Of a stretch of DNA of 21,402 bases, positions 1,628-21,052 are shown piece by piece. Every line of letters begins with the position of its first letter. The first letter of the stretch is position 1. The notes under the pieces were generated by a model. That model searched no databases. It saw only the letters and a list, made by a program, of their open reading frames with translations, and was not told the DNA's origin. The DNA lies in the IMG/VR virus record IMGVR_UViG_3300036859_000410, positions 1-21,402 of that record; one strand, given 5' to 3'. Origin of the DNA: a virus. The translations under genes were made by a program, and so were the position numbers.

Positions 1628-1628
1628 A

Positions 1629-2135
1629 ATGGCCCAGACTCCCATCCCGGAAGTGCCATTTGACCTACCCGAACCGGTACGCCGTTACTTGACTCATTTG
1701 CGCAACGCAGTTATATCGGTGAACGATTCCATTGCACCCCCAGAGGTTGTCACCAATTTCACCGTCACCCCTATGGCGGGGGGAAACCTCATCGAGTTCA
1801 CTCGCTCCAATGCGGACTTTTACAGTATTTATTGGTCTTCCGGGTTCGATTTTGACAAAGCTGAGGTTCTCGTCAGTCTTGGGCAAAATTCTCGGTATGA
1901 GGACCCCATCGGTGCCGGTGGCGTCACCCGCTATTATTGGGTTGCTGCTAATCGTCGGAATGGCCTGAGAGCTATAACCGATTTCGTTGCGAGTACGAGC
2001 TTGGCTTTGGGTACCCCAATCACCCCGCCCGCTCCTCCCCCTATCGGGGGTACTCCGTTTACTTCACCGGCAGCGGGAGGGCCGACCGATTATGGTCAGG
2101 GGAGTAAGGGCGGTTTTCCGGAAGAAATTCAATGA
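1629..2135 (+). CDS. Small virion protein with Fn3-like domain
   Basis: A 168-residue protein that starts one base after the preceding stop, so it is probably translated by re-initiation. Residues about 37-125 look like one fibronectin-III/Ig-like beta sandwich: a proline-initiated first strand (PPEVVTNFTVTP), a YSIYW strand and a terminal YYWVAANRRNG strand. The last 40 residues are a Pro/Gly/Ser-rich low-complexity tail with no obvious fold. Such small Fn3-like proteins commonly decorate phage tails or fibre bases and bind carbohydrate surfaces weakly. Position between the tail-nozzle gene and the ejection-type genes supports a tail accessory role. No enzyme motif was seen. The function is inferred from fold type and context only. 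Confidence 0.6.
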   Translation: MAQTPIPEVPFDLPEPVRRYLTHLRNAVISVNDSIAPPEVVTNFTVTPMAGGNLIEFTRSNADFYSIYWSSGFDFDKAEVLVSLGQNSRYEDPIGAGGVTRYYWVAANRRNGLRAITDFVASTSLALGTPITPPAPPPIGGTPFTSPAAGGPTDYGQGSKGGFPEEIQ

Positions 2136-2150
2136 CGTGAAGGAGGCGCA

Positions 2151-2687
2151 GTGGAGAGCCCTAGGAGCAAGCCAGGTAGCAAAGAGAAAACTTCCGAGGC
2201 AGCGTCGGCGGAGGACCGCGCAGCGCGTCAACGGGAATTGGGTGCGTCTGACCCGACTCTGCGTCAATTTGAGGGGAACATCGAATCCTCCCCCTATTAT
2301 AATAATTTGGTGCGCCTTGGTTTGGAGGACACGTCCCGCGAGTTCGACCAAATGCTCGGCGGCGTTCGCTCCAGAGCGCGTCAATCCGGCTTCGGTTACG
2401 AGCAACCAGCATCGCAAGCTGGTGAGGAGAGCGTTCGCATCGCGGAGGCCGGTGAATTGGCTCGCGTTCGGCCTGAGGCGTATGCCGCTGCTATCGAACC
2501 TTCGTTCCGTGCTGCTGGAATGCGCTCACAGCGTGCCGGTATTTTGGAGGGCGCTCAGGAACAGGAAATGGCAACAGCGGCTGACCTCGAAAATCAGCGC
2601 CGGAACCGTCGAGCGGCCCTGTGGGGTAGCTTGATGGGTGCTGGTGCCAAGGTCGCGAGCTCATTCGCGCCGCATCCGGGGGGGTAA
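2151..2687 (+). CDS. Probable internal virion / ejection-type protein (178 aa)
   Basis: Starts at GTG 2151, chosen because a full AAGGAGG ribosome-binding site lies four bases upstream (2140-2146); no ATG is near. The protein is Ala/Arg/Glu/Gln-rich and mostly helical, with a charged disordered N-terminus (about residues 1-35), a central helical part and a small Gly/Ala-rich hydrophobic patch near the C-terminus (LWGSLMGAGAKVASSF, about residues 156-171). Small proteins of this composition, placed between nozzle and large ejection genes, are typical of podovirus internal virion or DNA-ejection proteins. I do not recognise a specific family. The upstream gene ends 15 bases earlier and the next begins two bases after its stop. 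Confidence 0.55.
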   Translation: MESPRSKPGSKEKTSEAASAEDRAARQRELGASDPTLRQFEGNIESSPYYNNLVRLGLEDTSREFDQMLGGVRSRARQSGFGYEQPASQAGEESVRIAEAGELARVRPEAYAAAIEPSFRAAGMRSQRAGILEGAQEQEMATAADLENQRRNRRAALWGSLMGAGAKVASSFAPHPGG

Positions 2688-2689
2688 CA

Positions 2690-3928
2690 ATGCAGGTTAG
2701 TGGCAGCGCAGACCCTGATACAACTAGAAGACTGAGGCGAGCGGGGGTTATCCCTAACGTCGGGCCTCCCGATTTGGTTCCGGATATCAACGATTTTCCG
2801 GAAATTACAGGTCGGCGCTCCACTAATCTCAATCTCCCCCCTCCCGGCCCTTCGAGGCGTGAGCAGCTTGAGGCTCAACTCAATCCTCGCAGCAAGCATC
2901 CGACACGTGACAAAATTATTCAGGCCATCATCGACCTCGCCCCTATCGGTATCGGTGCGGCCTTCGGTGGCGAGGAAGGTGCTACCGGTGCGGCTCAGGC
3001 CACTGAACGTAACATCACGGTGCGCCAAGCTTTGGCCGAGCATCGACGTGACCAGCTTAAACAGTCCATTGAGGCAGAGCGCCAGCGTGAGGCGAGGGCA
3101 GAGGAGGAAGGTAACCAGCGCGTGTTCCAGATGCGTCAGCAACAGGAGCGCGAGGCAGGGGAGACAACGAGGGAACGTGAGCGTACTGCCGCTGCCGGTG
3201 AACTTCGTAAGTCAGTAATGGCACAACAGGCCGAATTCGAGCGCCAGCGCCAGATTGACCGCGCCGAGGATAATTCCCGGTTGGAGCGCTCCCTAAGAGA
3301 GAGCGTCCGTCACCACACGGCCATCGAGAATAAACCTCCCGCTCCGCGTGAACTCCCTCAAGGGAGCGAGTTTGAGCGCGCATTCAAACTTGAACATGGT
3401 CGAATGCCGACGACGCAGGATATTATTGACTATCAAACTGGTAAGGCCCACGCTTTGGCTCAGGAGAAAGAGCGCGGTACAGTCTCCTCTAAGCTGAGCG
3501 ACGCCGAATTCCGCGTCTCCCAAATGGAAGATGCATATAAACGGGCGGAGGCGGGTGAGACTCAAGCCGATGTTTCCCTCCTGTTTAACCACATCGGTAT
3601 GACCCTCTCCGCCCAAAAAGGCGCTCGAATCACGATGGCCGAAATTGAACGTGCCGCCAAGACCCGGACTTTACCTGAGGAGTTTCAAGTACAATACGAT
3701 TGGCTGGTGGGCAAAGGTTCCAGAAGGAGTTTGGCGCACGAGCAGCGCCAGCAGATGCTAAATTTGGCTCGCTCCCAGAGGGATATGTACCGGAAGCGCG
3801 CAGGCGAATTGGGTGAGGGCGGCGGACAAACCGAATCGGATATCGTTAAGATTGCCACTGACAAGGACGGCAATCGCAAGGGGTACAGTAGGAGTAAAAA
3901 AGCGTGGGTGGATTTACCGAAACAGTAA
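2690..3928 (+). CDS. Coiled-coil virion protein, ejection-type candidate (412 aa)
   Basis: The ATG at 2690 lies two bases after the preceding stop and follows a G-rich tract that can serve as ribosome-binding site. After a Pro-rich N-terminus (1-65) and a short Gly/Ala hydrophobic stretch (about 82-103, PIGIGAAFGGEEG), residues about 110-205 form a long, extremely charged helix of Glu/Arg/Gln heptads, a clear coiled coil. A helical C-terminal half (about 260-375) contains an AHEQRQQMLNLARSQRDMY helix. The last 30 residues contain a DKDGNRKGYSRSKKAWVDL segment, resembling short C-terminal beta motifs of phage ejection and tail proteins. No catalytic motif was seen. Its stop lies 25 bases inside the next gene. 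Virion location is inferred from neighbours and composition. Confidence 0.6.
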   Translation: MQVSGSADPDTTRRLRRAGVIPNVGPPDLVPDINDFPEITGRRSTNLNLPPPGPSRREQLEAQLNPRSKHPTRDKIIQAIIDLAPIGIGAAFGGEEGATGAAQATERNITVRQALAEHRRDQLKQSIEAERQREARAEEEGNQRVFQMRQQQEREAGETTRERERTAAAGELRKSVMAQQAEFERQRQIDRAEDNSRLERSLRESVRHHTAIENKPPAPRELPQGSEFERAFKLEHGRMPTTQDIIDYQTGKAHALAQEKERGTVSSKLSDAEFRVSQMEDAYKRAEAGETQADVSLLFNHIGMTLSAQKGARITMAEIERAAKTRTLPEEFQVQYDWLVGKGSRRSLAHEQRQQMLNLARSQRDMYRKRAGELGEGGGQTESDIVKIATDKDGNRKGYSRSKKAWVDLPKQ

Positions 3929-6879
3929 AGACGACTCCCCCCGGCAAAGCGCCGAAAAAGAAGCTTAGCGATGAGATGATTCCACCCCCTCCTCCCGGCT
4001 TTGAGGTACAGGAGTCTGCCCCGACTGATATCCCCCCTCCCCCTTCCGGCTTCTCCGTTGGGGATGAGGAGGCCCCTCTCCCCAAGAAGCAAGGGATGAT
4101 TAGTCGGGCGCTCCAAAGCTTCTCCGAGGCCATCGGTGCCCCCGGCGAGCTATCCGATATCGTAACTGGCCCCGCTACCATGATTCGCCATCCCCTACGG
4201 TCTATCAAAGACTTGGTTATGGGGATGGCCGAGCCGCAGCAGAAATTAATTGACCGCGCTTACCGGGAGCAGCAATCGCCTCGCTTACTGGACAAAATTG
4301 CCGGTTTGATTCATGGAACGGAAGCGGCTATCCCGTTCGTCGGCCCGGTATTGGAGAAGGCCGGAGAGGAGATGAAGGAGGGGAATATCGCCGGTGCTGT
4401 CGGCTCAACTGTCGGTGCCGCTGCTCCCTTCCTTGCTGGTGGTAAAGCTTCCCCAATGGAAGCGGCGCGAGGTATCCGAACCGGTATACGTGAACGCGTA
4501 CAGGCTGTCAGGCAGGGTCAAGGCGTTACCGGAAAGACCCTCGCTGCTGTGAAGCCGTTTCCGATGAAGAAGGAAATGTTATCCACTCCAGCGATTGGTG
4601 AAGTTGTCCCATCCGAAGGCATTCCCCGTATCGAGGTTAACGAGGCAGCTAAGGCTCGTGGTATCAACATGACTGCTGCTGAGGCCACTGGTTCTCGTCC
4701 TCTCCAGTCAATTCAAGGTGCTGGCGAACGTTCCATTGTCGGCGGCGGCAAACTCCAGTCCGCTAAGGAGCGTAACATTGCCAACGTTATCAAGTGGACT
4801 GAGGACGTTGGTGCCAAGATTGACCCGGAGAATCGCGGCCTGACTAACGAGCAGGTTGGCTCTCATCTTGGTGAAGCTGCCGAAGTTTCGATGGACAACA
4901 TGCGTAAGGGTGTCCGCGAGCAATTCGCTGCATTCAAGGACGCGTTTAGCCGCATCAAGGCCGATACGTCGGAGATTGCGAAGAAGTATAGCTCGCATCT
5001 TCAAGAGTTGCACAATGTCCTCAACAACCTCCCCGAAGCTTACGCTTCCCCGATCCGTAACCTGCTGAATAAAGCCTCGAAAATGGGCACGCCCGAATCG
5101 GAGAAGGTAACTGTCATGGGCGAACAGTGGACACCTGAGGAGTTGTGGGCCAAGCAACCGAAGATGGCGGAGGAACTTGGTTTACCGAAACCGGGTGAGG
5201 GGGGAGGACTCAATCTCCATGAATTGAGTATGCTCCGTTCCGCATTTTGGGATATCGGCCATAAATGGCGCAAGGGCAATATTCCCGACTATGCCGCTGG
5301 CCTTGCTCGTGAACTGACCCATGACACCGACCTTCTAATGATGGAAACGACCAAAGCTGCAGGTGCCGATGTCGAAGGCCCCTTCCGTCAAGCGAACGCT
5401 GCTTACGAGTTGATGAAGAACACTTTCGATGACCCGAAATCGCCAATGTACCAAGTCTTGGCCGAGCCTGACCCGTCGAAGATTCCTCAAAAGGTTCTCG
5501 CTGCCGGTAATTTCGGCGGCTCCCCTCAGAACATTCGCACTCTTAAGAATTTGGGTATCGACCTTGCTCCGATAAAACGTCAGATACTTGGCAAACTTCT
5601 TGAGCGTAATTTTGATACCAGCAAGCGCACACTGTCCGGCTATTCGCACGAGTTTTTGTCCGAGCTATACACGCCGGAGGAATTAAGAGAGATTTACATA
5701 TTGGCGAAAGTTGGGCGCACCATCGGGTTCGACGTCAACCCGCCTGAGCCGGGAAAGTCCTCCATCGGTGGCATCTTGTGGCAGCTTGGTGCCCTTGGCC
5801 GAGGCGCTCTTCATATTCCCGGTATTGAATGGGCGGCAGGGAAGTTCACGTCAAGCCCCTCAATTCGACGCTGGTTAACGGGTGTTCCTCCGGGGAAAGG
5901 GGGTGCTCCGAGCCTGAGAGAGGCGCTAGCTCCCAGAGGGGGAGGCGGTGAAGGCCCTGCTGGTGCGCGGATGGGTGGCCCTCCTCCTCCTCCTGAAACG
6001 CCACCGGCACCCGAAGCGCCGAAACCGCTAACGAGTGAGGCTCCGCCGAGCATGGGTCGTCGCGGTTTCCTGAAAACGGCGGTAGGCGCGGCAGTTACGG
6101 GGCCGGAAATAGCGAAACAAGGACTGAGGGAGGCAGTTGGGCTAGCGAAACCCATAGAGACGATAACTGCGACGATTCCTAGTGAATTTGTGCCGTCTTG
6201 GTACGATGCGGTTAACGGTCTTGCGACCAAGCTTAAAGGAAAAGTTTCAGGGGAGGCTATAGCTCAATTCGTCGACGATTACATGATGTCAATAGAAGAA
6301 AACTGGCAAGAATTGGCTAGATATTACACCTTGTCAGATGCTGCTCAATGGAATCATAATATCGTTAAGTCCATGTCTAAGATTAACTCTGCTTCTGATA
6401 TGGTTGACCTTTTGGTGGACGAACTTGGGGACTTGGAAGGAATAGGGGAGAACGTGCTGAGAGCGGCAGCTAAGGAAAACCCCGTAAAATACGGAGTGGA
6501 AGTGGCAAAGGAACTAGCTAGTCGAGCAGAAGCTGAACTTAACCCTCCCCCCCCGCCAAAGAGATTCGACATAGCCACAGGGAAAGAGTTGGCCCTGAGG
6601 GAACAGACTACTCTACAAAAGGAAATGACGAAGGCGAAGAAACCCACTCCTGAGGGCGATATCAAGTCATTCCGTAAGGATTTCCGCAAGTCGCTAGGGG
6701 AGAGGCTGGAGCCGTTGAAAGGGAAAATGGGGGAACTACCGCCTGAGTTGCCTGAGGTTAAACCAATTCCCAAGGCCAAGTCCCTCAAGTCCGAAATGTC
6801 GCGCAAGGCGGTCGGCGCTGAATTGAGTAAAGGGAAGAGCTTCAAGGAAGCGATAAAAGCGAGGGGGAAGAAAAAATGA
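3904..6879 (+). CDS. Large ejection-type virion protein with internal twin-arginine-like motif (991 aa)
   Basis: Starts at GTG 3904, 25 bases inside the preceding gene, with TAGGAG nine bases upstream; the next in-frame ATG is at 3976. The N-terminus carries two Pro-rich repeats (IPPPPPGFEV and IPPPPSGFSV, residues about 26-50). Residues about 110-185 include amphipathic Gly/Ala segments that may contact membrane. Residues about 255-650 are helical and resemble large podovirus DNA-ejection/internal virion proteins, by general character only. Pro/Gly-rich linkers (about 655-715) are followed by M717-GRRGFLKTAVGAAV, which looks like a Tat signal, and then a helical, lysine-rich C-terminal part (to 991). 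The bases coding for residues about 780-840 are markedly AT-rich. No lysozyme or transglycosylase motif was recognised. The stop overlaps the next start as ATGA. Confidence 0.6.
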   Translation: MGGFTETVKTTPPGKAPKKKLSDEMIPPPPPGFEVQESAPTDIPPPPSGFSVGDEEAPLPKKQGMISRALQSFSEAIGAPGELSDIVTGPATMIRHPLRSIKDLVMGMAEPQQKLIDRAYREQQSPRLLDKIAGLIHGTEAAIPFVGPVLEKAGEEMKEGNIAGAVGSTVGAAAPFLAGGKASPMEAARGIRTGIRERVQAVRQGQGVTGKTLAAVKPFPMKKEMLSTPAIGEVVPSEGIPRIEVNEAAKARGINMTAAEATGSRPLQSIQGAGERSIVGGGKLQSAKERNIANVIKWTEDVGAKIDPENRGLTNEQVGSHLGEAAEVSMDNMRKGVREQFAAFKDAFSRIKADTSEIAKKYSSHLQELHNVLNNLPEAYASPIRNLLNKASKMGTPESEKVTVMGEQWTPEELWAKQPKMAEELGLPKPGEGGGLNLHELSMLRSAFWDIGHKWRKGNIPDYAAGLARELTHDTDLLMMETTKAAGADVEGPFRQANAAYELMKNTFDDPKSPMYQVLAEPDPSKIPQKVLAAGNFGGSPQNIRTLKNLGIDLAPIKRQILGKLLERNFDTSKRTLSGYSHEFLSELYTPEELREIYILAKVGRTIGFDVNPPEPGKSSIGGILWQLGALGRGALHIPGIEWAAGKFTSSPSIRRWLTGVPPGKGGAPSLREALAPRGGGGEGPAGARMGGPPPPPETPPAPEAPKPLTSEAPPSMGRRGFLKTAVGAAVTGPEIAKQGLREAVGLAKPIETITATIPSEFVPSWYDAVNGLATKLKGKVSGEAIAQFVDDYMMSIEENWQELARYYTLSDAAQWNHNIVKSMSKINSASDMVDLLVDELGDLEGIGENVLRAAAKENPVKYGVEVAKELASRAEAELNPPPPPKRFDIATGKELALREQTTLQKEMTKAKKPTPEGDIKSFRKDFRKSLGERLEPLKGKMGELPPELPEVKPIPKAKSLKSEMSRKAVGAELSKGKSFKEAIKARGKKK

Positions 6880-9656
6880 AGAAGCTTGCCGCGATTCTAT
6901 TCTTGTTCGCCTCATCTACGTTTGCTCAGACGACCACACTCACTGGCACCTTCCGAGCGCCCAACGGCAATCTCATCTCCGGTAGCATGAAATTTGAGTT
7001 GCCTGTGCCCGGTACCTCCTCTGGCGTCGTCGTCATGCCTCAGCCGGTGACCTTCCGCATCTCAAACGGTGTCTTCCGGGGCACTCCAAAGGTGTACGGA
7101 AACGATGTTATCGTCCCCTCCGGCACCTTTTACCGCGTCACGTTCTCGGACGACTTTGGTCGTCCAGTCTTCTCTGCCAATTACGTCCTTACCGGCTCCC
7201 CGGTCGATATGTCAACGGCTGTCCCCACTTCCATTACTACGTCCAACATCACCTATTTTAATGTTCCTACTCTGGGCGGCAACAACGTCTTTACCGGTAA
7301 CAACACTTTCACCGGCACTAATACATTCACCAATCTTATCCTCCTATCCGCCAACATACCGCAGACGGGGGCTACTCCGGCGCAAATCGGGGGACTGTGG
7401 TGGCCCGGTACGGCTACTGGCTTTGTAACCCCACCCTCTGCCGCCCCGGTCGTACCGACCAGCGCTACTGGTGGGACGATTGCTGATGGCTCCTATAAGG
7501 TCTGTATCACCTATGTCAACCGCAACGGGGAAACTCCGTGCAGTCCGCCGACAACGGTGACTCTGAGCGGCGCAACCTCCTCGATTGTATTTGCCGCTGA
7601 AAATGACACCAACTGGCAGACCGGAGCCTTCGCGGAGCGTGTCTATGTGTCTAGCGATGGCGGTACAACCTACTGGCGGCAGACGCCCACCGTTGTAGCA
7701 ACCGATTTCATGTGGGACACGACCGCGCACTATATTAAGATGGGCAGCGGTGTGCAGAAAACAATCCAGTCACTCGTTACTTCTGGCACAAATCCCCCCA
7801 CTACGAACACCGCTGTGATTGACCCCCTACAGGTGGCGCTGAACGCTACGCGGCGAGTTTCAGACCGTGTGCCTTTCGGGACGCTGGTAGTTCCCGCGAT
7901 TCAGGATGCGGGTGTGGACACGCGCACATTGCTCACCACGCCACTGATTATGCGGCAGCAAGACCATATCATCGGCTCTAGCTCAATGGCGGGGCTGGTT
8001 GACCAACAGTCGCGCATTGTTGTTTTTCCGGCATGGGGCGGAGCCAACGACAACAAGCTGGCGGCAGTGATGAACTTTGGCGGGGATGCCTCTATCTCCA
8101 ACGTAGGTATTCAGGGCATCGGCACGAACGCGCTGATGGTGCTCTGTGGAGTTGGCAATCAGTGTTCGGGTGGGACGAGCGTTCAGAATGTGTCCCTGCG
8201 CGTGAGCGACACGACCAATACCTACTCGGCTTTTGTGGCCGTGGGTGTCCTCTACGACCTGCACTTCGACCATGTAGGCATGGTGGGAGGGAATGCGCTC
8301 ATTCAATACCGCAATGCAGCGGGTGGGCTGCACTACTACACAGGCGGCAGATGGGATGCCAGCGGCGACCACTTTATTAACATGGTTCCCGGCTGGACTG
8401 ACCCTGACAACGGCACGAATGACGGCGCATTCCCGAATGGGCTGGACAGGGTAGTGGTCAAGAACGTCCGCACCGAGGGCGGCAAGGGGATTTTGTGGGA
8501 CGTGATGGGTGTGAACCTGACGTTGGACACTGTAGAGGTAGCCGATGCGCTTGTACAAGCAGGTACGGCGGCAATTATCCGCATGGGCACTGATAGCACT
8601 ATCACACAGGTCAATGGCTCTCGGCTGACGCTCATCAACACCTCTGGAGGCTCTAGCTCGAACGCGGCAGCGGGAGTGAAGGTCAACGCTGGCCTGTCCA
8701 ACAATCAAACCTTCATCACCGTTGAAGGGGATTCTGGGTTTCCGGTTGGCGCGAGCGGCGTCGGCGTGGACGCCAGCAATATCGGCTTAGTCCTTACCAA
8801 CCTAACTTCCAGCACATTTACGGCTAATCCCAACGCCAGCGGCGCGGCAGTGAAGATGATTAACGTCCCGAATAGCTCGCGCATCGTCGGCGGGGGCGGC
8901 GGCTCCGGCCTCGCGGCTGACGGTGGACAGTGGTTTGAGCTTCCTGACCGATTGGTGCTCAACTATCACGCGGGCAACAATGCTTGGGACAGGTCGCAGC
9001 GCCGCTCTTGGCGTAACGTCTCCGGCACGCTCAATCTCTACGCCTCGGATGACACCACGGTCACACACTCGTGGAACGCGCTTGGAGACGCGACCATGAC
9101 GCGCTTCCTGAGCGTGGGGGCGAACTCGCCGACAGGTGCAGCAGTCGGTACGAGCGGCATCGGCCTTGGCAGCGGCAAGGCTATCTGGACTCGCAACAAC
9201 GCGAACTCCGCCAATATGTTCGTCCTGTTCACCAACGCCAGTGACCAACTGGAACTCGGAACGGATGCCGGGATTGCGAGCATAAAGCTGACCAAAAATA
9301 TCAGTTCTTCGGCTAACGGCGGCTTCGTGAACCTGTCAACTTCTGGCAACATTACGGACAGCGGTAGTCTCAACATCGGCGGTGGTCAAGCCATCTCCAA
9401 GCACATCTCGACCACCGCCGCGCTCGACTTTGCTAATCAGACCGCTATTGGCTGCAACGACCTCACGGTGACGGCGACCGACGCGGCCCTAGGAGATGTG
9501 GTTACTCTTGGGGTGCCGAACGCCTCAGTCCCGAACGGTACGGCGCTATTCTCTGCTTGGGTGAGTGCCCCAAACACGGTGACGGTCCGCTATTGCAACT
9601 TGATGAGTGGCGACCCCGCGAGCGGCACTTTCAGGGTAGATGTGTGGCAGCACTAG
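6876..9656 (+). CDS. Tail fibre/spike protein with N-terminal signal peptide (926 aa)
   Basis: ATG 6876 overlaps the preceding stop (ATGA). Residues 1-17 form a textbook Sec signal peptide (MKKLAAILFLFASSTFA, cleavage before Q18), unusual for a virion fibre. An N-terminal beta domain (about 18-115) is followed by asparagine-rich repeats of the FTGNNTFTG type (about 135-152), common in fibre shafts. An Fn3-like module (about 200-275, with ITYVNRNGETPCSPP) precedes a long Gly/Ser/Asn/Thr-rich, beta-helix-like region (about 320-700) starting with VPAIQDAGVDTRTLL, which suits a receptor-binding or depolymerase spike. The C-terminal 95 residues (from about 830) resemble a domain recurrent at fibre C-termini and ending in a GTFRVDVWQH strand. 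No catalytic residues were identified. It is the last large gene before the lysis module. Confidence 0.75.
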   Translation: MKKLAAILFLFASSTFAQTTTLTGTFRAPNGNLISGSMKFELPVPGTSSGVVVMPQPVTFRISNGVFRGTPKVYGNDVIVPSGTFYRVTFSDDFGRPVFSANYVLTGSPVDMSTAVPTSITTSNITYFNVPTLGGNNVFTGNNTFTGTNTFTNLILLSANIPQTGATPAQIGGLWWPGTATGFVTPPSAAPVVPTSATGGTIADGSYKVCITYVNRNGETPCSPPTTVTLSGATSSIVFAAENDTNWQTGAFAERVYVSSDGGTTYWRQTPTVVATDFMWDTTAHYIKMGSGVQKTIQSLVTSGTNPPTTNTAVIDPLQVALNATRRVSDRVPFGTLVVPAIQDAGVDTRTLLTTPLIMRQQDHIIGSSSMAGLVDQQSRIVVFPAWGGANDNKLAAVMNFGGDASISNVGIQGIGTNALMVLCGVGNQCSGGTSVQNVSLRVSDTTNTYSAFVAVGVLYDLHFDHVGMVGGNALIQYRNAAGGLHYYTGGRWDASGDHFINMVPGWTDPDNGTNDGAFPNGLDRVVVKNVRTEGGKGILWDVMGVNLTLDTVEVADALVQAGTAAIIRMGTDSTITQVNGSRLTLINTSGGSSSNAAAGVKVNAGLSNNQTFITVEGDSGFPVGASGVGVDASNIGLVLTNLTSSTFTANPNASGAAVKMINVPNSSRIVGGGGGSGLAADGGQWFELPDRLVLNYHAGNNAWDRSQRRSWRNVSGTLNLYASDDTTVTHSWNALGDATMTRFLSVGANSPTGAAVGTSGIGLGSGKAIWTRNNANSANMFVLFTNASDQLELGTDAGIASIKLTKNISSSANGGFVNLSTSGNITDSGSLNIGGGQAISKHISTTAALDFANQTAIGCNDLTVTATDAALGDVVTLGVPNASVPNGTALFSAWVSAPNTVTVRYCNLMSGDPASGTFRVDVWQH

Positions 9657-10380: not shown

Positions 10381-10899
10381 GTGCACTCGAATTTCGGGGA
10401 CATACAATTGTCCTCCCATTTCAAGATGCGTGAGTTTATCTATTCGCGTACTGCTTACTTGGCTGGTATCGACAATACCCCTCCCCCTGAATGCGTCGAT
10501 ATCCTAAAGGAGTTTTGTGCCAAGGTTCTCGAACCGGTAAGGGAATTCGCTGGCACTATCTTAATCGCTAGCGGCTACCGGTGTCCCGAACTGAACAGGT
10601 TGGTCCACGGTGTTCCTACCAGTGAGCACATCTGGACCCCGGACCGCGTTGCGGCGGACCTGCACTTCGCGATGTTGCTGGAGGAGGTATTCGACTGGAT
10701 ATGTAAAAAGAGCTTCCTCCCGTTCGACCAATGCATTCTGGAACGCGGCAAAGTCCCAGATGTCGAAACCGATGACTGTATCCACATCTCTTATACCCGC
10801 GCCCCTCGTCGGATGGCTTTATTGGGCGAGACGCATAATCGGTCCGGGTATCAACGAGTTCCTGTATTAAAACCAACATCGGAGGTCAAAGATGTATAA
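10381..10899 (+). CDS. M15-family D-Ala-D-Ala carboxypeptidase-like endolysin
   Basis: GTG 10381 with AGGAG six bases upstream. The 172-residue protein carries the zinc-peptidase M15 signature: SGYRCPELNRLVHG (64-77), a SEH motif with zinc ligand H83, AADLHF with ligand D93, and IHIS with ligand H135. Family members (Peptidase_M15_3 type) cleave peptide cross-links or the terminal D-Ala of peptidoglycan, and phages use them as endolysins. Residues about 10-60 match the usual N-terminal helix and NF-xxxEF-like entry of this family. No signal peptide or binding domain is present, so release probably needs the upstream holin candidate. The stop lies eight bases inside the next gene. Endolysin role is inferred from motif and position. 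Confidence 0.85.
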   Translation: MHSNFGDIQLSSHFKMREFIYSRTAYLAGIDNTPPPECVDILKEFCAKVLEPVREFAGTILIASGYRCPELNRLVHGVPTSEHIWTPDRVAADLHFAMLLEEVFDWICKKSFLPFDQCILERGKVPDVETDDCIHISYTRAPRRMALLGETHNRSGYQRVPVLKPTSEVKDV

Positions 10900-11691: not shown

Positions 11692-12153
11692 CTAACGCTC
11701 GATATCCACCTGCATCGCGGCCATCACATGGAGGACTGAGCGATAGACTGGTTGGTCCTCGCTTAGGTGCACCAACTTCCTGTCCAACTCATGTTTCATG
11801 TAATTCATCGCCTTCATCGTCCGACTCGATAGCCGGTTGCCGTGTCGAGTTACCCAGAACAGGGCCTCGATGTTGTCGGCCACCTTTACGATCTTCATCT
11901 CTCTTGATAAGGTGTGGAAGTCCGAGTGCCCTTTCGATGGAGAGGGAGCGTCGCCTGTATCGGCTTCGTCACCGTCGTGGGACAGGGCCAGAGACACGAC
12001 TGTGGCCGTGAACTCTGTATTGTCGTACACCAAAGCTATCTCTCGCGCTATCACGGCAACCCGATACGAATGCTCCGCTACACTCTGTTCTCGAAGCATG
12101 TCACATATGGTCCAACGTTTGACGTAGCTCAAGTGAAGAAGGTCGTTGAGCAT
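11692..12153 (-). CDS. datZ: HD-domain dATP triphosphohydrolase (DatZ-like)
   Basis: A 153-residue protein with GGGAGGAG a few bases upstream of ATG 12153. It matches the YfbR/DatZ branch of HD phosphohydrolases: R13-W14 near the N-terminus, SVAEHSYRVAVIA with metal ligand H28, SHDGDEADTGDAPSPSK with H59-D60, E63 and D68, and VKVADNIEA with D93. E. coli YfbR has the equivalent RTENVSEHS, HDASEVLTGDLPTPVK and VKQADA motifs. In 2-aminoadenine phages DatZ converts dATP to deoxyadenosine and triphosphate, removing the competitor of dZTP; the W14 position corresponds to a reported base-contact Trp. It is the last gene of the - strand operon, away from mazZ and purZ. A general 5'-deoxynucleotidase (YfbR-like) is the alternative; context favours DatZ. 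Confidence 0.8.
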   Translation of the reverse strand: MLNDLLHLSYVKRWTICDMLREQSVAEHSYRVAVIAREIALVYDNTEFTATVVSLALSHDGDEADTGDAPSPSKGHSDFHTLSREMKIVKVADNIEALFWVTRHGNRLSSRTMKAMNYMKHELDRKLVHLSEDQPVYRSVLHVMAAMQVDIER

Positions 12154-14422: not shown

Positions 14423-14734
14423 TCACCCGACTCTGGGTACTGGTGTCGTCCTTTTTACCGCTACTCTATCGAACTTGTGCCATGCGACCTTCCCACATTT
14501 TCTACAGTTCAGCATGGCCCTTCTCGTCTCTGGCTCGTCCAGCTTTGTCCCCCTGTACACAGGCCCGTCGATGTTTATTTGCCCCCATATTCGGCGCTCC
14601 CCGCATACCTCGCACACGTAAATGAGGTGTCCTTTGTCGCAGGTGCCGACTGTTACCTCGCGGGACATACGCTTCGACCCATCGTACTTCTCCTCGGTGA
14701 GGCCATCGTACTTCGATAGGTTTTCACCCGGCAA
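14423..14734 (-). CDS. Zinc-ribbon-type small protein, start uncertain
   Basis: Two Cys pairs, CEVC and CRKC, about 30 residues apart, plus TCDKGH upstream, indicate a zinc-ribbon-like fold. The first ATG in frame (14668) lacks a ribosome-binding site and would leave a 55-base gap in an otherwise gapless operon. The TTG at 14734 overlaps the preceding gene slightly, has a GGGGGG tract upstream, and takes in an in-frame repeat (KYDG, twice, eight codons apart), so it is preferred here. A TTG at 14785 would overlap further. Function unknown; the ribbon may bind nucleic acid or protein. Confidence 0.5.
   Translation of the reverse strand: MPGENLSKYDGLTEEKYDGSKRMSREVTVGTCDKGHLIYVCEVCGERRIWGQINIDGPVYRGTKLDEPETRRAMLNCRKCGKVAWHKFDRVAVKRTTPVPRVG
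14679..14714. repeat. Short in-frame direct repeat
   Basis: CCATCGTACTTC occurs at 14679-14690 and 14703-14714 on the + strand, 24 bases apart, a multiple of three. On the - strand it encodes KYDG twice in the zinc-ribbon gene frame, which supports translation upstream of ATG 14668. Confidence 0.6.
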
Positions 14735-15080
14735 GAACACCCCCCAGAGGCTTGATTTGGACTGTTGTGTACGGCTTGCCCTCAACGGTACAAGCTACGA
14801 TGGTCTCAGCCGGTACACCGGCCTCCAACAGCTTTTCCTTGCTCAACTTCGAGGCGCTACGCGTGTCAACGAGGGTGACGCGCCATACATCATCGACGGA
14901 GACGCACTTGACGTTCTTCTCAGCTAAGGCTACGGAAATTCTCCCGTTCATCTCCTCGACTTCGGCTTTGAGGGCCTCCAGTTTGTCCTTCTTCACTTGT
15001 CGCTGCGAGATTAGCAGGGCGAAGTCTTCTCCCAACCCAACTTCGTTGAACTTCGGTACTGGCACTTCCATGTTTGCCAT
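14724..15080 (-). CDS. Conserved-type phage protein of unknown function, 118 aa
   Basis: ATG 15080 has GTAGGAGG five bases upstream; a second ATG three codons later is less likely. The protein has an N-terminal basic helical part (about 15-50, with KKDKLEALKAEVEEMNGRI), then a beta-rich core reading VDDVWRVTLVDTRSASKL and a KEKLLEAGVPAETIVACT helix. The pattern 'VTLVDxxRxxLxKxxLLExGVxAExI' is familiar from uncharacterised phage proteins near replication genes, recalled rather than searched. It is the first gene after the polymerase, following the candidate promoter, and its stop lies eleven bases inside the next reading frame if the TTG start there is right. Confidence 0.6.
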   Translation of the reverse strand: MANMEVPVPKFNEVGLGEDFALLISQRQVKKDKLEALKAEVEEMNGRISVALAEKNVKCVSVDDVWRVTLVDTRSASKLSKEKLLEAGVPAETIVACTVEGKPYTTVQIKPLGGVLAG

Positions 15081-15156: not shown

Positions 15157-17634
15157 TCACTTTTCGAGGTCCCCCCATGTTGGCCCCTCTGCGCGGCTCG
15201 CCTCTATCGGTACTTTCAGCCGCACCGTGTCGGTCATGAAATTCTCTATAGTTTGGAGTATGTCCGGGTCGATATTCTCGTCCACTTCGAAAAGTAGTTC
15301 ATCGTGTATCTGGAGCAACGGTTCGATATGAACTCCCTGTTCCCACATGCACTCTAAGAACGGCCAGATACACTCCCCCATCGACTTTTTGATTACCCCC
15401 TGTGCTCCGGCTTGAATATCGTGGCTATGCGATTGGCGCAGGGCCTCTTCTTTTATCCACCAAATGTCTGACCACACGCCGGGAAGGTATCGGATTCGAC
15501 CCCACATATCGCGAACGTACCCGTACCGGCGAGCCTCTGTCCGCTTTTCCTCCATGAAGGCCCGGACGCCGGGGTATACATCGTCTAGGTACAGGGAGAT
15601 GGCGTCGTCGCACTTTTTCTCCGTCCAGTCCATAGCCCTAGCGAGGAACATTTGCCACAAGAGGCCCTTCCCTGTAATGCCGGTGATAACTCCAAATCCT
15701 ACCCGCTTTGCGGCATACCTCTGGACTGTGGTCACCGCCTCTGGGGGGACCTTGTACATCATAGCCCCGGTTGCTTGATGGATATCCTCGCCCTTGAGGA
15801 ACAGGTCTATCATCGTCGGGTCCTCGGAGCGGTGAGCCATCAGTCTCATTTCAATTTGATTAAGGTCGAGTGTGACAAGCTTGCGTCCGGGCGGCGCGAT
15901 GAATCCTTTGCGTATTTTTTTACCCAACTCCGTACGCGTCGGTATTGCGAGGAGGTTAGGGCTTGAAGCAGCAAGTCGTCCAGATGAGACTCGCGTAATG
16001 CGTAGATTGCACCGGATTCGACCGTCACTAGAGACAAGCCTTGGCAGCACGATACTGAAAGAGTTCTTGAGTTTAGACAATTCTCGATAATCACAGACCA
16101 TCCCAACGGCGGGGTGCTGAAATCGGATACTCTCAAGCGATTTGTCATCGGTGGCCTCCTCCCTCTTTACCTTCGTCAGCTTCGGTGCCGTTATCCCAAG
16201 CTGACCATACAGGAGCATGACCGTCTCTGGCGGAGAGTTCGGGTTGATTCGGGTGCCAGTTAAGTCCTCGATATCTTGGACTATTTGCTCCATACCCTCA
16301 TCGAACTCCCTCGACAGTTGGTTGAAGTAGCCTATGTCCACCGCCATTCCGTTTGACTGCATCCGCTCGACCATGGGAACGATGGCGTGGTCAATCTCCG
16401 ATACCTGTTCGAGGCCCATATCCTCAATTTTCTTCTTGAGGATGGGGTAGATACGGAGGGTGGCATCCGCGTCTCGCGCCGCATATTGAACCGCCTCGTC
16501 CATTGGAACGTGGAATATGTTCAATTCCGGCATATCACCCATGACCGTTATCACCGGTTCTTTCAACTCATCGGGCCAGTCATTCCAGCGCTTCCACACC
16601 ATCTCCGGCGCTATTTTCCCCTCACCGATATCCTTGAGGAGACGGTTCATGCGCTTGAAGATGGAGTGCTTTAGACCATCAGCCGGGGGCCAAATATCCT
16701 GAGCGGTAGCGTCACAGAGGTACCGAATGGCTTCATCCACGCTGTAGGGGGCGACAATCTCCTCGAACGAGTGCATGTTCATCCCGCAGTACCGTTTGGC
16801 GAGAGGTTTGAGGCCCTGAGGCTCAAGGCATAGGAGATAAGCGAGAATCATGGTGTCGGTGAATTGGCCGGAGCGGACGTGGATGCCCATTTTACGCAGA
16901 ATGCCGATATCATGGAGGCTATTGTGGAGAATCAGGCGGCCATCGAACCCAATCTCGGTGCCATCTGCTGCCGTCTCTACTGTCGCCTGTCCGGGAACAG
17001 TTGACCAGCTTAAGCCCCAAGGGGTGCCTCGGTAGCTCTCGGTATCGACAGCGATCGTTTTGGCCACGACTCCGTACTTCCCCGTCACCGCCTCAAGTCC
17101 TTTAACATATCTCGGCTCCGGGTGTGCGTCCTCCAGCTTCCTCGGCTCCAGCTTTCCCTTCGCTAGCATCCCAAGTTGCTCGAAGTCATAATTGATTTGG
17201 CCTTGCATCTCCGTTGAGTGCATACCAGCGGCAGGGTGGTAAACGGGCATGACAATGATACCGTCACGCCATTTCACTGGTAGAGCGTGGACAACTTCCA
17301 TATCAACGTCGCCAAGAAAGTAACGAGTAGCGTACCGGCCAACACTGACAATAATCCGAGGATGACAATCGTGAATTTCCTTTTCCAAGGTGGGTGCATC
17401 TCGCTTCATCTCCCAATCTTCAGGGTCTTTATCGCCGACAGCGTAATATTTGCAGAGATTGGTTACGTAAACGTCTTCGCGGTTGATACCGTTGCGGAAT
17501 AGGTAGCGGTTAAGTTCCTTACCGGCCTTGCCGACAAATGGACGGCCCCATCTATCCTCATCTTTCCCCGGCCTCTCGCCTACGAACATTATGTCGCAAG
17601 GTTGAGGCCCCGACCCCTTGATGAATCGAGCCAT
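15157..17634 (-). CDS. UDG-like / 3'-5' exonuclease / family A DNA polymerase fusion (DpoZ candidate)
   Basis: 825 residues. Residues 1-160 resemble a family 4-type uracil-DNA glycosylase: GERPGKDED (19-27), RPFVGKAG (31-38), TNLCKY (58-63), HPAAG (133-137); the paired iron-sulfur Cys are absent. Residues about 185-400 are a DnaQ-type exonuclease with D197-T-E199, HNSLHD (D242) and Y384-xxx-D388, plus an extra ~80 residues (about 297-378) before the last motif. Residues 400-825 are a family A polymerase: TRVSSGRLAASSPN (R553), motif A D590-LNQIEMRLMAH, motif B R639-xxx-K643-xxx-F647, motif C QIHDEL (D778). Where E. coli PolI has Tyr766, it has T651. No 5' nuclease domain. In Z phages the family A enzyme DpoZ prefers dZTP to dATP; that role is inferred from purZ, mazZ and datZ here. 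Polymerase very sure; DpoZ likely. Confidence 0.93.
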   Translation of the reverse strand: MARFIKGSGPQPCDIMFVGERPGKDEDRWGRPFVGKAGKELNRYLFRNGINREDVYVTNLCKYYAVGDKDPEDWEMKRDAPTLEKEIHDCHPRIIVSVGRYATRYFLGDVDMEVVHALPVKWRDGIIVMPVYHPAAGMHSTEMQGQINYDFEQLGMLAKGKLEPRKLEDAHPEPRYVKGLEAVTGKYGVVAKTIAVDTESYRGTPWGLSWSTVPGQATVETAADGTEIGFDGRLILHNSLHDIGILRKMGIHVRSGQFTDTMILAYLLCLEPQGLKPLAKRYCGMNMHSFEEIVAPYSVDEAIRYLCDATAQDIWPPADGLKHSIFKRMNRLLKDIGEGKIAPEMVWKRWNDWPDELKEPVITVMGDMPELNIFHVPMDEAVQYAARDADATLRIYPILKKKIEDMGLEQVSEIDHAIVPMVERMQSNGMAVDIGYFNQLSREFDEGMEQIVQDIEDLTGTRINPNSPPETVMLLYGQLGITAPKLTKVKREEATDDKSLESIRFQHPAVGMVCDYRELSKLKNSFSIVLPRLVSSDGRIRCNLRITRVSSGRLAASSPNLLAIPTRTELGKKIRKGFIAPPGRKLVTLDLNQIEMRLMAHRSEDPTMIDLFLKGEDIHQATGAMMYKVPPEAVTTVQRYAAKRVGFGVITGITGKGLLWQMFLARAMDWTEKKCDDAISLYLDDVYPGVRAFMEEKRTEARRYGYVRDMWGRIRYLPGVWSDIWWIKEEALRQSHSHDIQAGAQGVIKKSMGECIWPFLECMWEQGVHIEPLLQIHDELLFEVDENIDPDILQTIENFMTDTVRLKVPIEASRAEGPTWGDLEK

Positions 17635-18446: not shown

Positions 18447-19181
18447 TTATCCTCCGTGGATGGCTTTGTAGATTCGTTCAGCCATGACGCCGCCGATTCC
18501 CTCGATGGTAGCCCATTCTCTTTCGTCGGCCAGCACCATCTCCTCGATAGTCTTAAACTTTCGGGCTACCTCTTGCGACTTCCTCCAGCCGATTCCCGGC
18601 AATTCGGCGGCTACCCGGCGCACGATGGACGGGTGTACGAGCGCCGCCGCGTCCGCGCTCACCGTGCTTAGCGTCAGATGGCTATGATGCTCCTCCCAAT
18701 CTTTATGGTTGAACCACCCGTACAGATTGGCAATAATTCGGGCTGTCTCCGCTCGGCTCCCTGACCTCTTGACGTGAACGCCGCCCCTTAGCTCCATAGT
18801 CGTGAGCCAGCTATCGAAATCCCGGTACATGAAGCGGCGAGCGCCGATATGCGCTTCCTGTCGCTTTTTGCCCTTGGGAACCATCAGTATGCCAGTTTTA
18901 TAGTCGGCATTGTACACACCCTCCACCAGTAGCCAAGCGAACCGGCCATATTGCTCGCGCAGACCGGGGAGTTGGTGACCGGCGAACCTCCCGTCAACCA
19001 TACAGGCGAGGGCATCCTTAACCTTTTTGACCTCGATACCGACAAGAATTTGGCCCTCTGGCCCTGAGCCGCAGAAGGCAACGTCGCCATAGTCGAGGGT
19101 CACAACTTTGGTTTCGATGCGGAGTGAGGACAGATATCCGGCTAAGTCTACGCTGCCGGTTCTTCGGTCAACAAGTATCAC
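18447..19181 (-). CDS. ERCC4-type nuclease with C-terminal helix-hairpin-helix
   Basis: GTG 19181 overlaps the purZ stop as GTGA; the ORF can be extended to 19310 but then runs through purZ out of frame, and the ERCC4 fold starts at VILVDRR. The 244-residue protein has GDV (32-34), VGIEVKKVKDALACMVDGRF (a version of the ERKxxxD nuclease core: E50, K52, D56; the Arg is Val) and a DGRF/HQ element. The C-terminus has two helix-hairpin-helix motifs (ELPGIGWRKSQEVARKF and TIEGIGGVMAERIYKAI). XPF/Mus81-type nucleases cut branched DNA; phage homologues probably process recombination or replication forks. The central ~110 residues have no clear second domain. Structure-selective cleavage is a family inference. 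Confidence 0.8.
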   Translation of the reverse strand: MILVDRRTGSVDLAGYLSSLRIETKVVTLDYGDVAFCGSGPEGQILVGIEVKKVKDALACMVDGRFAGHQLPGLREQYGRFAWLLVEGVYNADYKTGILMVPKGKKRQEAHIGARRFMYRDFDSWLTTMELRGGVHVKRSGSRAETARIIANLYGWFNHKDWEEHHSHLTLSTVSADAAALVHPSIVRRVAAELPGIGWRKSQEVARKFKTIEEMVLADEREWATIEGIGGVMAERIYKAIHGG

Positions 19182-20455
19182 GGTATCAGGAAATTCTCGC
19201 GCTCTGGGCCAGTTGTAACCGCTGCAATCGGACAGCCGATTCGAGCAGCCACTCGCCCCAGTTTGTCCCTTTGCGCTTGCGAGAAGCCGTGCTTCATCAC
19301 CGACCCCCACGTCTCAGGATACCAGTGGTTGAAGAAGGTCAACACCGCATACGATGGTCGGTTTATCATTACTGCTCGCCTTGCCATTTCGCTGTCAAAC
19401 ATCGCCACGCGCCGCAGCTTACGCGTCACAGTGGTCAACTCGAATACTTTCTCCAACTCGGCCATACCCTCGTGGCTCATCAGTTTGATAGCCTCGGCAT
19501 TGAGTTCGCTTAGGGCCTCTTTATATGTCAATCTCTCTGTGATGCTCCAAGTGTGCATCTGGACGTTCGGGTTCCCATCGGCGTCACATGGTACGCTCCA
19601 ATTTTCCGACGCTATTTCAAGGCAACCCTCAAACTCCGTTATGGCCCAATCTTGAACTCGCGGTGGCATCCCGACCTCGGCCAGCTTCAAGTTTATCATC
19701 CGCGCCAATATTGGCCAGCTAATCTCTGAGGGCATCGGGCCGGAGTTACCGGCTACACGGATAGGGAACGTCCGGAGGCATAAGACGACCTCGTACCGGA
19801 GCGAGGGCGATAGACCAGCCTCAGCTATCCAAGTAGCGGCGTTACATTGTTTGTGTGTGGTGTAAGGGTAGGGGCCAAGATACAAATCGAGGGCGCTTCC
19901 CTGTGTCCCTTCGAGCAAAATCTGGCAACCGTTGTCGTACGCGTCGTTGAGGACACGAACGGTGTCGCAGATGTTCCAGTTATCGGTGTGGCTATAGTCC
20001 TTGAAATTGACGTAACCGCTCCCACGGTTGCGAATCTTGTCAACGATTGCCTCGCTGCACCCCTTCCCTGTCGCCCCTATTTTGTGGTGGCGACCCGATT
20101 CGGCAGACCGCATCGTGTGGGTTGGCAGGTGGAGGCCAGCACCCCGGTCAATGAACAACCGGTTACGGACCCTGAACCCGTCTGCCTCAATTTCATCACA
20201 TTCACGTTTGAGGATTTCGGGATGGATGAAAGCGCCGGGGCCAAGGACAAGGCGCGTGTCCGGATTCGTCCAGCCAACGGGGAGTTGCTGCATCTTGTAG
20301 ACCTTGCCGTCGTGGACAATGGTGTGCCCCGCATTGACCGCGCCGGTACGGACGGCAAAATCGACGCCGCGAATGTGGCCAAGGGCCTCGGCTACCATGC
20401 CCTTGCCCTCGCTCCCCCACTGACCGCCCTGTATCACGATTATAGGCTTGTGCAT
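19178..20455 (-). CDS. purZ: PurZ: dGMP-dependent adenylosuccinate synthetase homologue (Z-genome)
   Basis: 425 residues from ATG 20455, chosen over an upstream frame start because AAGGAGG lies just before it and the mazZ stop overlaps it (TAATG). PurA family throughout: GGQWGSEGKG (10-19, P-loop), NAGHT, IGATGKG, EGTQGSALDLYLGPYPYTT, a TTVTRKLRR aspartate-loop segment and TGPERENFLI near the end. The catalytic Asp of PurA (QWGDEGKG) is Ser15 here; that replacement is reported for PurZ, which joins dGMP and Asp with ATP to give 2-amino-2'-deoxyadenylosuccinate, processed by host PurB to dZMP. An inserted stretch of roughly 55 residues lies near the middle of the C-terminal half, before TTVT. 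Adjacent MazZ, polymerase and DatZ support this; an ordinary PurA or archaeal-like PurZ0 is the alternative. Confidence 0.9.
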   Translation of the reverse strand: MHKPIIVIQGGQWGSEGKGMVAEALGHIRGVDFAVRTGAVNAGHTIVHDGKVYKMQQLPVGWTNPDTRLVLGPGAFIHPEILKRECDEIEADGFRVRNRLFIDRGAGLHLPTHTMRSAESGRHHKIGATGKGCSEAIVDKIRNRGSGYVNFKDYSHTDNWNICDTVRVLNDAYDNGCQILLEGTQGSALDLYLGPYPYTTHKQCNAATWIAEAGLSPSLRYEVVLCLRTFPIRVAGNSGPMPSEISWPILARMINLKLAEVGMPPRVQDWAITEFEGCLEIASENWSVPCDADGNPNVQMHTWSITERLTYKEALSELNAEAIKLMSHEGMAELEKVFELTTVTRKLRRVAMFDSEMARRAVMINRPSYAVLTFFNHWYPETWGSVMKHGFSQAQRDKLGRVAARIGCPIAAVTTGPERENFLIP

Positions 20456-20763
20456 TACGTTTCCTCCTTGCCGTCTCGCAAAACTTGCAGCATGTGTAAG
20501 CACATAGCTGCGGTTTGCTCAAGCTCATGCACCAACATAGCGCTGTACGCTCGGTAATCAGGAGACTCCGGGTGCAAATTGTACTCGCCACCAGCAAATT
20601 TTCGGGCTCGCGTGAGGTCTACGGCAGCTTTCACCGCCTCGCCGCACTCCTCAGCTACCAGTAGCATCCCCCGCTGGACGCTCCGGGGGAACGGGCCGTG
20701 CTGCTGTTCGGCCCTTTCCATCTCCACCGCTACACGCCTTATTAGCTCTCCGCTTAGAACCAC
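20455..20763 (-). CDS. mazZ: MazG-like (d)NTP pyrophosphohydrolase (MazZ candidate)
   Basis: GTG 20763 is fixed by GGAGGAG (20768-20774) five bases upstream, although it lies 113 bases inside the preceding gene. The 102-residue protein has the MazG metal motif AEECGEAVKAAV (E38, E39, E42) and a second helix VHELEQTAAMCLHML, where the usual ExxD reads E80-LE-Q83; a Q-T/V-A-A-M pattern is what I recall from phage MazG-like proteins. HGPFPRS at about 22-28 matches the family's entry region. The family hydrolyses (d)NTP to (d)NMP and pyrophosphate. MazZ of Z phages converts dGTP to dGMP, supplying PurZ, whose start overlaps this stop (TAATG). General dNTP housekeeping is the alternative. Confidence 0.82.
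   Translation of the reverse strand: MVLSGELIRRVAVEMERAEQQHGPFPRSVQRGMLLVAEECGEAVKAAVDLTRARKFAGGEYNLHPESPDYRAYSAMLVHELEQTAAMCLHMLQVLRDGKEET
20461..20469 (-). promoter_or_regulatory. Strong ribosome-binding site of purZ
   Basis: The - strand reads AAGGAGGAA five bases before ATG 20455, lying within the last codons of mazZ. It settles the short purZ start and suggests efficient translation coupled to mazZ. Confidence 0.8.
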
Positions 20764-21052
20764 GATGCTCCTCCGTGTCCCGCCTCAGGCCCTCGTACAA
20801 ATTGGCGTAGTTCATTAGGTCGATGAGGTCGTCGTAAATCTTGTCGGTATCCGAAGTCCTGCCGGTCTTGGCGAACGTTCTCAGCCGACTGACTTTATCT
20901 TGCATCCGGGCGACGATACCTATCAAGCCATCGTCGCGCAAGTTAGTGAACGGGTCCTCGGCTGAGGCGCGGTCTTGGTTCTTAGTGGACAACAGGAACC
21001 GAGCCTCGCCGCACATTTTCCTGTGGAGTTCATATAGCTCTTTTCGTGTCAT
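20651..21052 (-). CDS. DUF1599/Nmad1-like protein
   Basis: ATG 21052 overlaps the preceding stop (ATGA); a longer frame to 21217 would run inside the preceding gene. The 133-residue protein begins MTRKELYELHRKMC and carries DPFTNLRDDG, GIVARMQDKVSRL and IYDDLIDLMNYANLYEGL, the pattern I recall for DUF1599/Nmad1 ('nucleotide modification associated domain 1'), a small helical domain linked by others to phage DNA-modification loci. The core ends near residue 90; the remaining basic, Gly/Pro-rich 40 residues overlap mazZ in another frame. No catalytic residues are known to me. Its place just before mazZ and purZ suggests a role in modified-nucleotide metabolism; that is inference. Confidence 0.7.
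   Translation of the reverse strand: MTRKELYELHRKMCGEARFLLSTKNQDRASAEDPFTNLRDDGLIGIVARMQDKVSRLRTFAKTGRTSDTDKIYDDLIDLMNYANLYEGLRRDTEEHRGSKRRANKACSGGDGKGRTAARPVPPERPAGDATGS
20768..20774 (-). promoter_or_regulatory. Strong ribosome-binding site of mazZ
   Basis: GGAGGAG, four bases before GTG 20763, inside the C-terminal part of the DUF1599 gene; it supports the long overlap between the two genes. Confidence 0.75.

Follow-up and report, generated by a model that had tools for sequence, protein, structure and literature searches.

Phage PurZ has been divided into two subgroups, matching two groups of polymerases, in a 2026 survey of NCBI viruses, and in that survey all 147 of its 147 phage PurZ sequences carry a serine in the P-loop (PMC12884076). 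For the enzyme of phage S-2L, the structural report describes this serine as adjoining the 2-amino group of dGMP, names F306 and Q308 among the residues that touch adenine, and presents a rigid dimer whose sole mobile part is the aspartate loop (PMC8342488). The same report describes a short insertion of S-2L's own, A242-W250, placed just after a conserved Val. A search of open-licence PMC for a third PurZ branch or an insertion in PurZ returned nothing.

The DNA analysed here, called the window, spans an IMG/VR virus record of 21402 bases from end to end. Its minus strand encodes a PurZ with a long insertion leading directly into the TTVT aspartate loop (Table 1). At a probability of about 0.68, the evidence favors a joint reading in which this PurZ belongs to a third branch, would turn dGMP into dSMP with ATP or dATP as donor, carries a helical module, and serves a phage with Z-DNA. 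The plus strand over the same span is interrupted by stops, and the stop of the upstream ORF overlaps the purZ start as TAATG. The gene lies where the preliminary description had placed it, as a real ORF of 425 aa, and its translation contains each motif reported there (the P-loop QWGSEGKG, the NAGHT His and the TTVTRKLRR stretch).

Table 1. Features of the window on and around the insert-bearing purZ gene
Feature	Position	Strand	Basis or remark
DatZ-like HD hydrolase	11692..12153	-	dATP triphosphohydrolase family phrog_7076
Small ORF	14724..15080	-	conserved in 5/18 clade loci searched
Family-4 UDG domain fused to DNA polymerase A	15157..17634	-	motif B AAKRVGFGVITGITG
ERCC4/XPF-type nuclease with HhH	18447..19310	-	homology from residue 44, right at the purZ stop
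Insert-bearing PurZ, 425 aa	19178..20455	-	ATG at 20455, stop included in span
Clade-specific insertion, about residues 248-336	19448..19714	-	alignment, predicted structure
Ser15 codon (position of PurA Asp13 and S-2L PurZ Ser23)	20411..20413	-	alignment
MazG-like small ORF, putative	20455..20763	-	EExxE-type pattern, weak; stop overlaps purZ start
Ribosome-binding site AAGGAGG	20463..20469	-	7 nt before purZ ATG
DUF1599 / nucleotide modification associated domain 1-like ORF	20651..21052	-	below Pfam cut-off
AAA_24-type ATPase, C-terminal part, cut by contig end	21049..21402	-	Pfam match on relative L096

Ser15 had been singled out as a peculiarity of this protein. It does fall within the active site, where it aligns with Ser23 of S-2L PurZ and with the catalytic Asp of PurA, but it is a hallmark of PurZ at large. 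In an alignment of 94 rows (16 insert-bearing, 58 other viral and 20 PurA), Ser occupies the position in 15 of the 16 insert rows and in all 58 other viral rows, while all 20 PurA rows have Asp; the lone row without Ser is L103, a gene cut by the contig end, and QWGSEGKG is read at L112, the opposite end of the same contig. With the survey's 147 of 147 beside these counts (PMC12884076), Ser15 is an ordinary family mark of PurZ and not a novelty. Every position of the S-2L dGMP pocket that was checked is kept as well (N41, T129, R144, Q185, R233, V234, T341-T344 and R348), the contacts being those given in PMC8342488. The protein combines the broad sequence features of phage PurZ: the Ser, a compact core, the dGMP pocket with the TTVT loop, and a branching among viral sequences. 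To judge from solved PurZ structures, the loss of PurA's catalytic Asp would leave room for the 2-amino group of guanine.

Could the gene instead encode a PurA serving normal AMP production, or a form halfway between PurA and PurZ, its bacterial-like length reflecting PurA ancestry? Its 425 aa are close to bacterial PurA, and the NCBIfam model for archaeal-type PurA scores 230 bits, more than the 204.4 bits, in two matched stretches, of the PurZ model NF038379 (amino_Aden_PurZ); both values lie under the respective cut-offs, and falling short of the PurZ cut-off of 300 counts against the assignment. Sequence searches of the PDB return the short archaeal PurA of P. horikoshii, then PurZ0 (7vf6), PurA and other phage PurZ structures, in that order. 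The idea of an intermediate, put forward in the preliminary description, fails on the origin of the length. Bacterial PurA has 76-77 and 49-50 residues where the window protein has about 36 and 8 (two PurA rows), and both of these long stretches are absent from the window protein, from archaeal PurA and from the described PurZ rows. The insert matches neither, so that the PurA-like size is coincidental, and an intermediate is rejected because bacterial PurA owes its length to these two other stretches. Without the insert the core measures about 337 aa, similar to P. horikoshii PurA or phiVC8 PurZ. The P. horikoshii enzyme (5K7X) shares this compact core without the bacterial stretches (Z 44.7, 332 residues aligned), but differs in its P-loop Asp and in having no insert. 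Since the catalytic position lacks the Asp by which bacterial PurA is recognized, neither bacterial stretch is present, and the clade is placed among viral PurZ (support for the viral group 100/99), a PurA or an intermediate is highly improbable here.

Relatives were reached only through alignments: a scan of viral contigs with the single window PurZ sequence found none, while an alignment-based scan kept 80 loci and a second one, with the insert clade, 19. Among INPHARED phages 217 records match the window PurZ, and 0 of the 217 reach a coverage of 80% of the query. The window and 17 further contigs show the insert, one of the latter having been reached via its polymerase; two more are N-terminal fragments. 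In these 18 IMG/VR contigs, window included, it sits at the same place, which is far beyond chance, and IMG/VR contigs are the only source from which the insert clade is known here. Two of the loci, L103 and L112, are the two ends of one contig of 42838 bases, each end cutting purZ, so that a circular or permuted genome of about 43 kb, represented almost in full, is probable.

The 80 of 94 relatives taken from a scan of genome contigs all bear archaeal titles, and those whose frame was read (up to 350 aa) include no protein of insert size. As an observation apart, 11 of these 80 archaeal PurA loci show a break in the gene: a short G+C-rich segment lies right at the P-loop, in many cases with a stop or a frame change, and the frame resumes after it (L143, for example at 8025-8100, and L147, L150, L159, L163, L164, L170, L179, L181, L190 and L191). 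All come from records titled as Methanomethylicota/Methanomethylicia-type or Nezhaarchaeota. From their sequence, the interruptions look like tiny bulge-helix-bulge introns in a protein gene; no literature joining PurA and such an intron was found.

In a tree of 74 rows, computed with the insert columns excluded, the 17 insert rows group together in a single clade (100/100). Separate clades unite the seven PurZ rows (100/98), the 18 PurZ0 rows (100/100) and 12 rows of the uncultured group G3 (99/96), and the viral sequences as a whole stand apart from PurA. The window protein thus falls outside the clade of the described PurZ subgroup (phiVC8, S-2L, SH-Ab) and outside that of PurZ0. A distinct PurZ branch, one of the options offered in the preliminary description, is borne out, and the insert-bearing PurZ apparently constitutes a separate, undescribed one. 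As to the order of the clades, the data are compatible both with a grouping of the insert rows with PurZ (p-AU 0.34) and with PurZ0 (p-AU 0.155). Three more groups, G3 (L025-L050), G4 (L051, L059, L060, L078, L089 and L094) and G5 (L039, L054, L065 and L066), comprise PurZ of the Ser type without an insert and likewise belong to neither the described PurZ clade nor the PurZ0 clade; uncultured phages contain a wider range of PurZ than the two named subgroups cover.

The adenine pocket points to the donor nucleotide. The window protein has F374 and N376 where S-2L PurZ has F306 and Q308, a resemblance to the S-2L and phiVC8 pockets which suggests that ATP or dATP is the likely donor. At the Q308 position N occurs in 14 of the 16 insert rows and N or Q in all 7 PurZ rows, as against D in 18/18 PurZ0 and 23/23 G3 rows; the two remaining insert rows carry D, which counts against an ATP-type donor. 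Taken literally, a sentence of PMC12884076 has PurZ0 preferring ATP and PurZ preferring GTP. This sentence conflicts with the S-2L and phiVC8 structures, and the donor prediction rests on the structures. That the ATP-type pocket arose independently of the phiVC8-like group is not claimed, given the p-AU of 0.34 for a clade of insert rows with PurZ.

The insertion is the feature that sets this branch apart. Between GNSG-SEISW and TTVT (E244-E339) there are 73-100 residues in the 16 insert rows and 10-22 in the other 78, and the nearest PDB sequence matches end near residue 247-250 to restart near 337. The alignment thereby confirms an insertion relative to known PurZ, and the preliminary description was right to put extra residues before TTVT; their span is about 248-337, not 265-320. 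An AlphaFold2 model built from 42 of our own sequences (pLDDT 94.2, pTM 0.92) predicts helices at 247-260, 269-285, 305-310, 312-325 and 328-334, with block means of 92-98, and the insert folded alone from 16 segments gives the same helices (pLDDT 89.2). Overlaid on solved folds, as had been proposed, the whole model matches PurZ0 7vf6 with Z 44.7 over 333 residues and 5k7x with Z 44.7 over 332, leaving about the length of the insert unaligned. Compared alone, the insert reaches Z of at least 5 with none of the 218 chains aligned; the best value, 3.9, does not demonstrate a new fold. Pfam has no family in the window's insert and only chance-level matches among the 16 members. An intein was rejected from the alignment, the length being 73-100 aa and the boundary residues not common.

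PurZ0 (7vf6) has the same fold over its 333 aligned residues at 33% identity, and likewise shows the P-loop Ser, the TTVT loop and a GNSG loop without the S-2L insertion, but it lacks the 73-100-residue insert, carries Asp at the donor-specificity position, and forms a separate clade; its phages have dutZ and dmtZ as reported partners (PMC12884076), whereas the window has a DatZ-like neighbor. PurZ of phiVC8 (6FM1) and S-2L (7ODX) shares the P-loop Ser, the Phe plus Asn/Gln adenine pocket and a DatZ-like neighbor, and differs in a gap of 10-18 residues as against 73-100 and in its separate clade. The insertion A242-W250 of S-2L (PMC8342488) is a different, adjacent one, the window insert being larger and placed further on.

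The insert evolves faster than the rest of the protein: over 105 pairs from 15 rows, mean pairwise identity is 25% in the insert and 49% in the core. Near-invariant residues are few, namely W247, N255, E339 and T341 at the edges and S316. Crude dN/dS for four pairs is 0.11, 0.46, 0.33 and 0.43 in the insert and 0.20, 0.25, 0.24 and 0.09 in the core; the insert values, 0.33-0.46 in three pairs and 0.11 in the fourth, indicate purifying selection. The insert's ends are conserved and its middle varies, which suggests a scaffolding role, not a catalytic one. The helical module sits between the Val loop, which touches the deoxyribose, and the mobile TTVT loop. With an anchor at each end of the connector to the aspartate loop, it would most likely brace or cap that loop, and may also offer a docking face to a partner encoded nearby; one or the other role is probable.

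A recurring cassette in the clade consists of the MazG-like ORF, PurZ, the XPF-type nuclease, the UDG-PolA and the DatZ-like protein. When the window ORFs were compared by blastp with those of 18 clade loci (17 contigs, G002 left out), the XPF-type nuclease and the AAA ATPase were each found in 11, PolA or UDG-PolA in 10, the DatZ-like protein in 8, the MazG-like one in 7 and the DUF1599-like one in 3. The window contains DatZ-like PF12917, and a whole-record search finds it in 9 of 19 records of the clade, of which several are short fragments; L104 has a dATP/dGTP diphosphohydrolase N-terminal domain. Counting against the cassette, several clade contigs have none of its partners in the available sequence. 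The matches of the MazG-like ORF are weak (ypjD, E 0.067; nucleotide pyrophosphohydrolase, E 0.094), and an identity with S-2L-type MazZ is not claimed, the profile comparison giving a probability of 7.9%. Elsewhere in the window, large plus-strand ORFs at 74-1627, 1629-2135, 2151-2687, 2690-3928, 3904-6879 and 6876-9656 have no PHROG match; this block (74-9656) probably holds virion genes and is followed by an endolysin-like ORF (phrog_894) at 10381-10899.

Such a neighborhood raises the question of whether the insert is chiefly a docking module, tying PurZ to the MazG-like protein, the XPF-type nuclease or the UDG-PolA for the channelling of dGMP or dZTP, with an active site independent of the insert. 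Its rapid divergence and few near-invariant residues are what a partner-facing surface would show, and the nuclease (11/18 loci) and PolA or UDG-PolA (10/18) are conserved neighbors. Set against this are four divergent insert members without that PolA: it is absent from L105, L107 and L108, and L109 matches it weakly (E 1.9e-4); the PolA that L107 does have is a different one, with Tyr in helix O. Docking as the main role is therefore a doubtful, if serious, alternative to the bracing of the aspartate loop.

The linked polymerase supplies a second line of evidence. Against AKAINFGLIYG of the Klenow fragment, the window PolA reads AKRVGFGVITG, with Asn changed to Gly and Tyr to Thr. This helix-O Tyr is the sole position changed in both known groups of Z polymerases, where it becomes Phe: among 8 sequences of the two DpoZ groups, 7 have Phe and one has Ser, and control PolAs have Tyr in 7 of 7. 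All 10 insert-linked PolAs in which the region is present have Thr, and so does L193. The window PolA is altered at the same position as the DpoZ proteins, with Thr in place of their Phe; it scores below both NCBIfam DpoZ cut-offs and belongs to a separate clade (100/100). The phiVC8-like and Wayne-like DpoZ are likewise PolAs linked to PurZ with the helix-O Tyr replaced, but they have Phe, whereas the window enzyme has Thr, an N-terminal UDG domain and its own clade. When the viral collection was searched with a DNA pattern for KR.GFG.ITG, 11 contigs matched, one of them by chance in a capsid-like ORF; 9 of the 10 real PolA contigs carry the insert PurZ, and the tenth is a 17.5-kb fragment without PurZ. 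The window, L097, L100, L101 and L104 have UDG fused to PolA, while in L096, L102, L103 and L106 the PolA ORF measures just 505-531 aa and its N-terminal part is missing.

Loss of the helix-O Tyr is not exclusive to Z phages, a notion that was tried and rejected. In a separate scan of 80 PolA relatives, Phe occurs in 7 and Met in L246, with no PurZ found in the available stretches; when the whole records of 19 PolA loci, including all those with Phe, were searched, an adenylosuccinate-synthetase family gene appeared in L220 only. This locus, on a contig of 7555 bases, has a UDG-PolA that shares 45% identity with that of the window and carries Asn in place of the helix-O Tyr; the PurZ beside it lies in a frame of 366 aa, which leaves no room for the insert. 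The polymerase lineage therefore occurs with another type of PurZ too. The PolAs that lose the Tyr without a detected PurZ are what one would expect if Z nucleotides were made without full replacement of A, in partial modification or manipulation of the pool, and if the Tyr-to-Thr change were unrelated. Sisters of the same lineage without a detected PurZ keep the Tyr (for example L223 and L225), and it is absent in 10/10 PolAs linked to insert PurZ and in L220 with its other PurZ, which makes partial use of Z unlikely.

Under the preferred reading of a full Z-DNA phage, PurZ (2-amino adenylosuccinate synthetase) would join dGMP and aspartate, at the expense of a nucleotide triphosphate, into dSMP, the committed step towards dZTP. 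The DatZ-like enzyme would remove dATP, the UDG-fused PolA with its helix-O Thr would be the cognate polymerase, and the phage would most likely replace A by 2-aminoadenine. It is somewhat more probable than otherwise that insert PurZ with its ATP-type pocket and its own Z polymerase, changed from Tyr to Thr and often fused to UDG, mark a third line of Z-DNA phages that arose independently, alongside those of phiVC8/S-2L and of Wayne/Archimedes. Such a third PurZ-polymerase pair would be an independent evolutionary replicate of the exclusion of A from DNA. It would draw attention to the helix-O Tyr as one position to probe for Z selectivity, where nature offers Phe, Thr and, in L220, Asn; and the insert, being removable, would offer a handle on how the aspartate loop is controlled.
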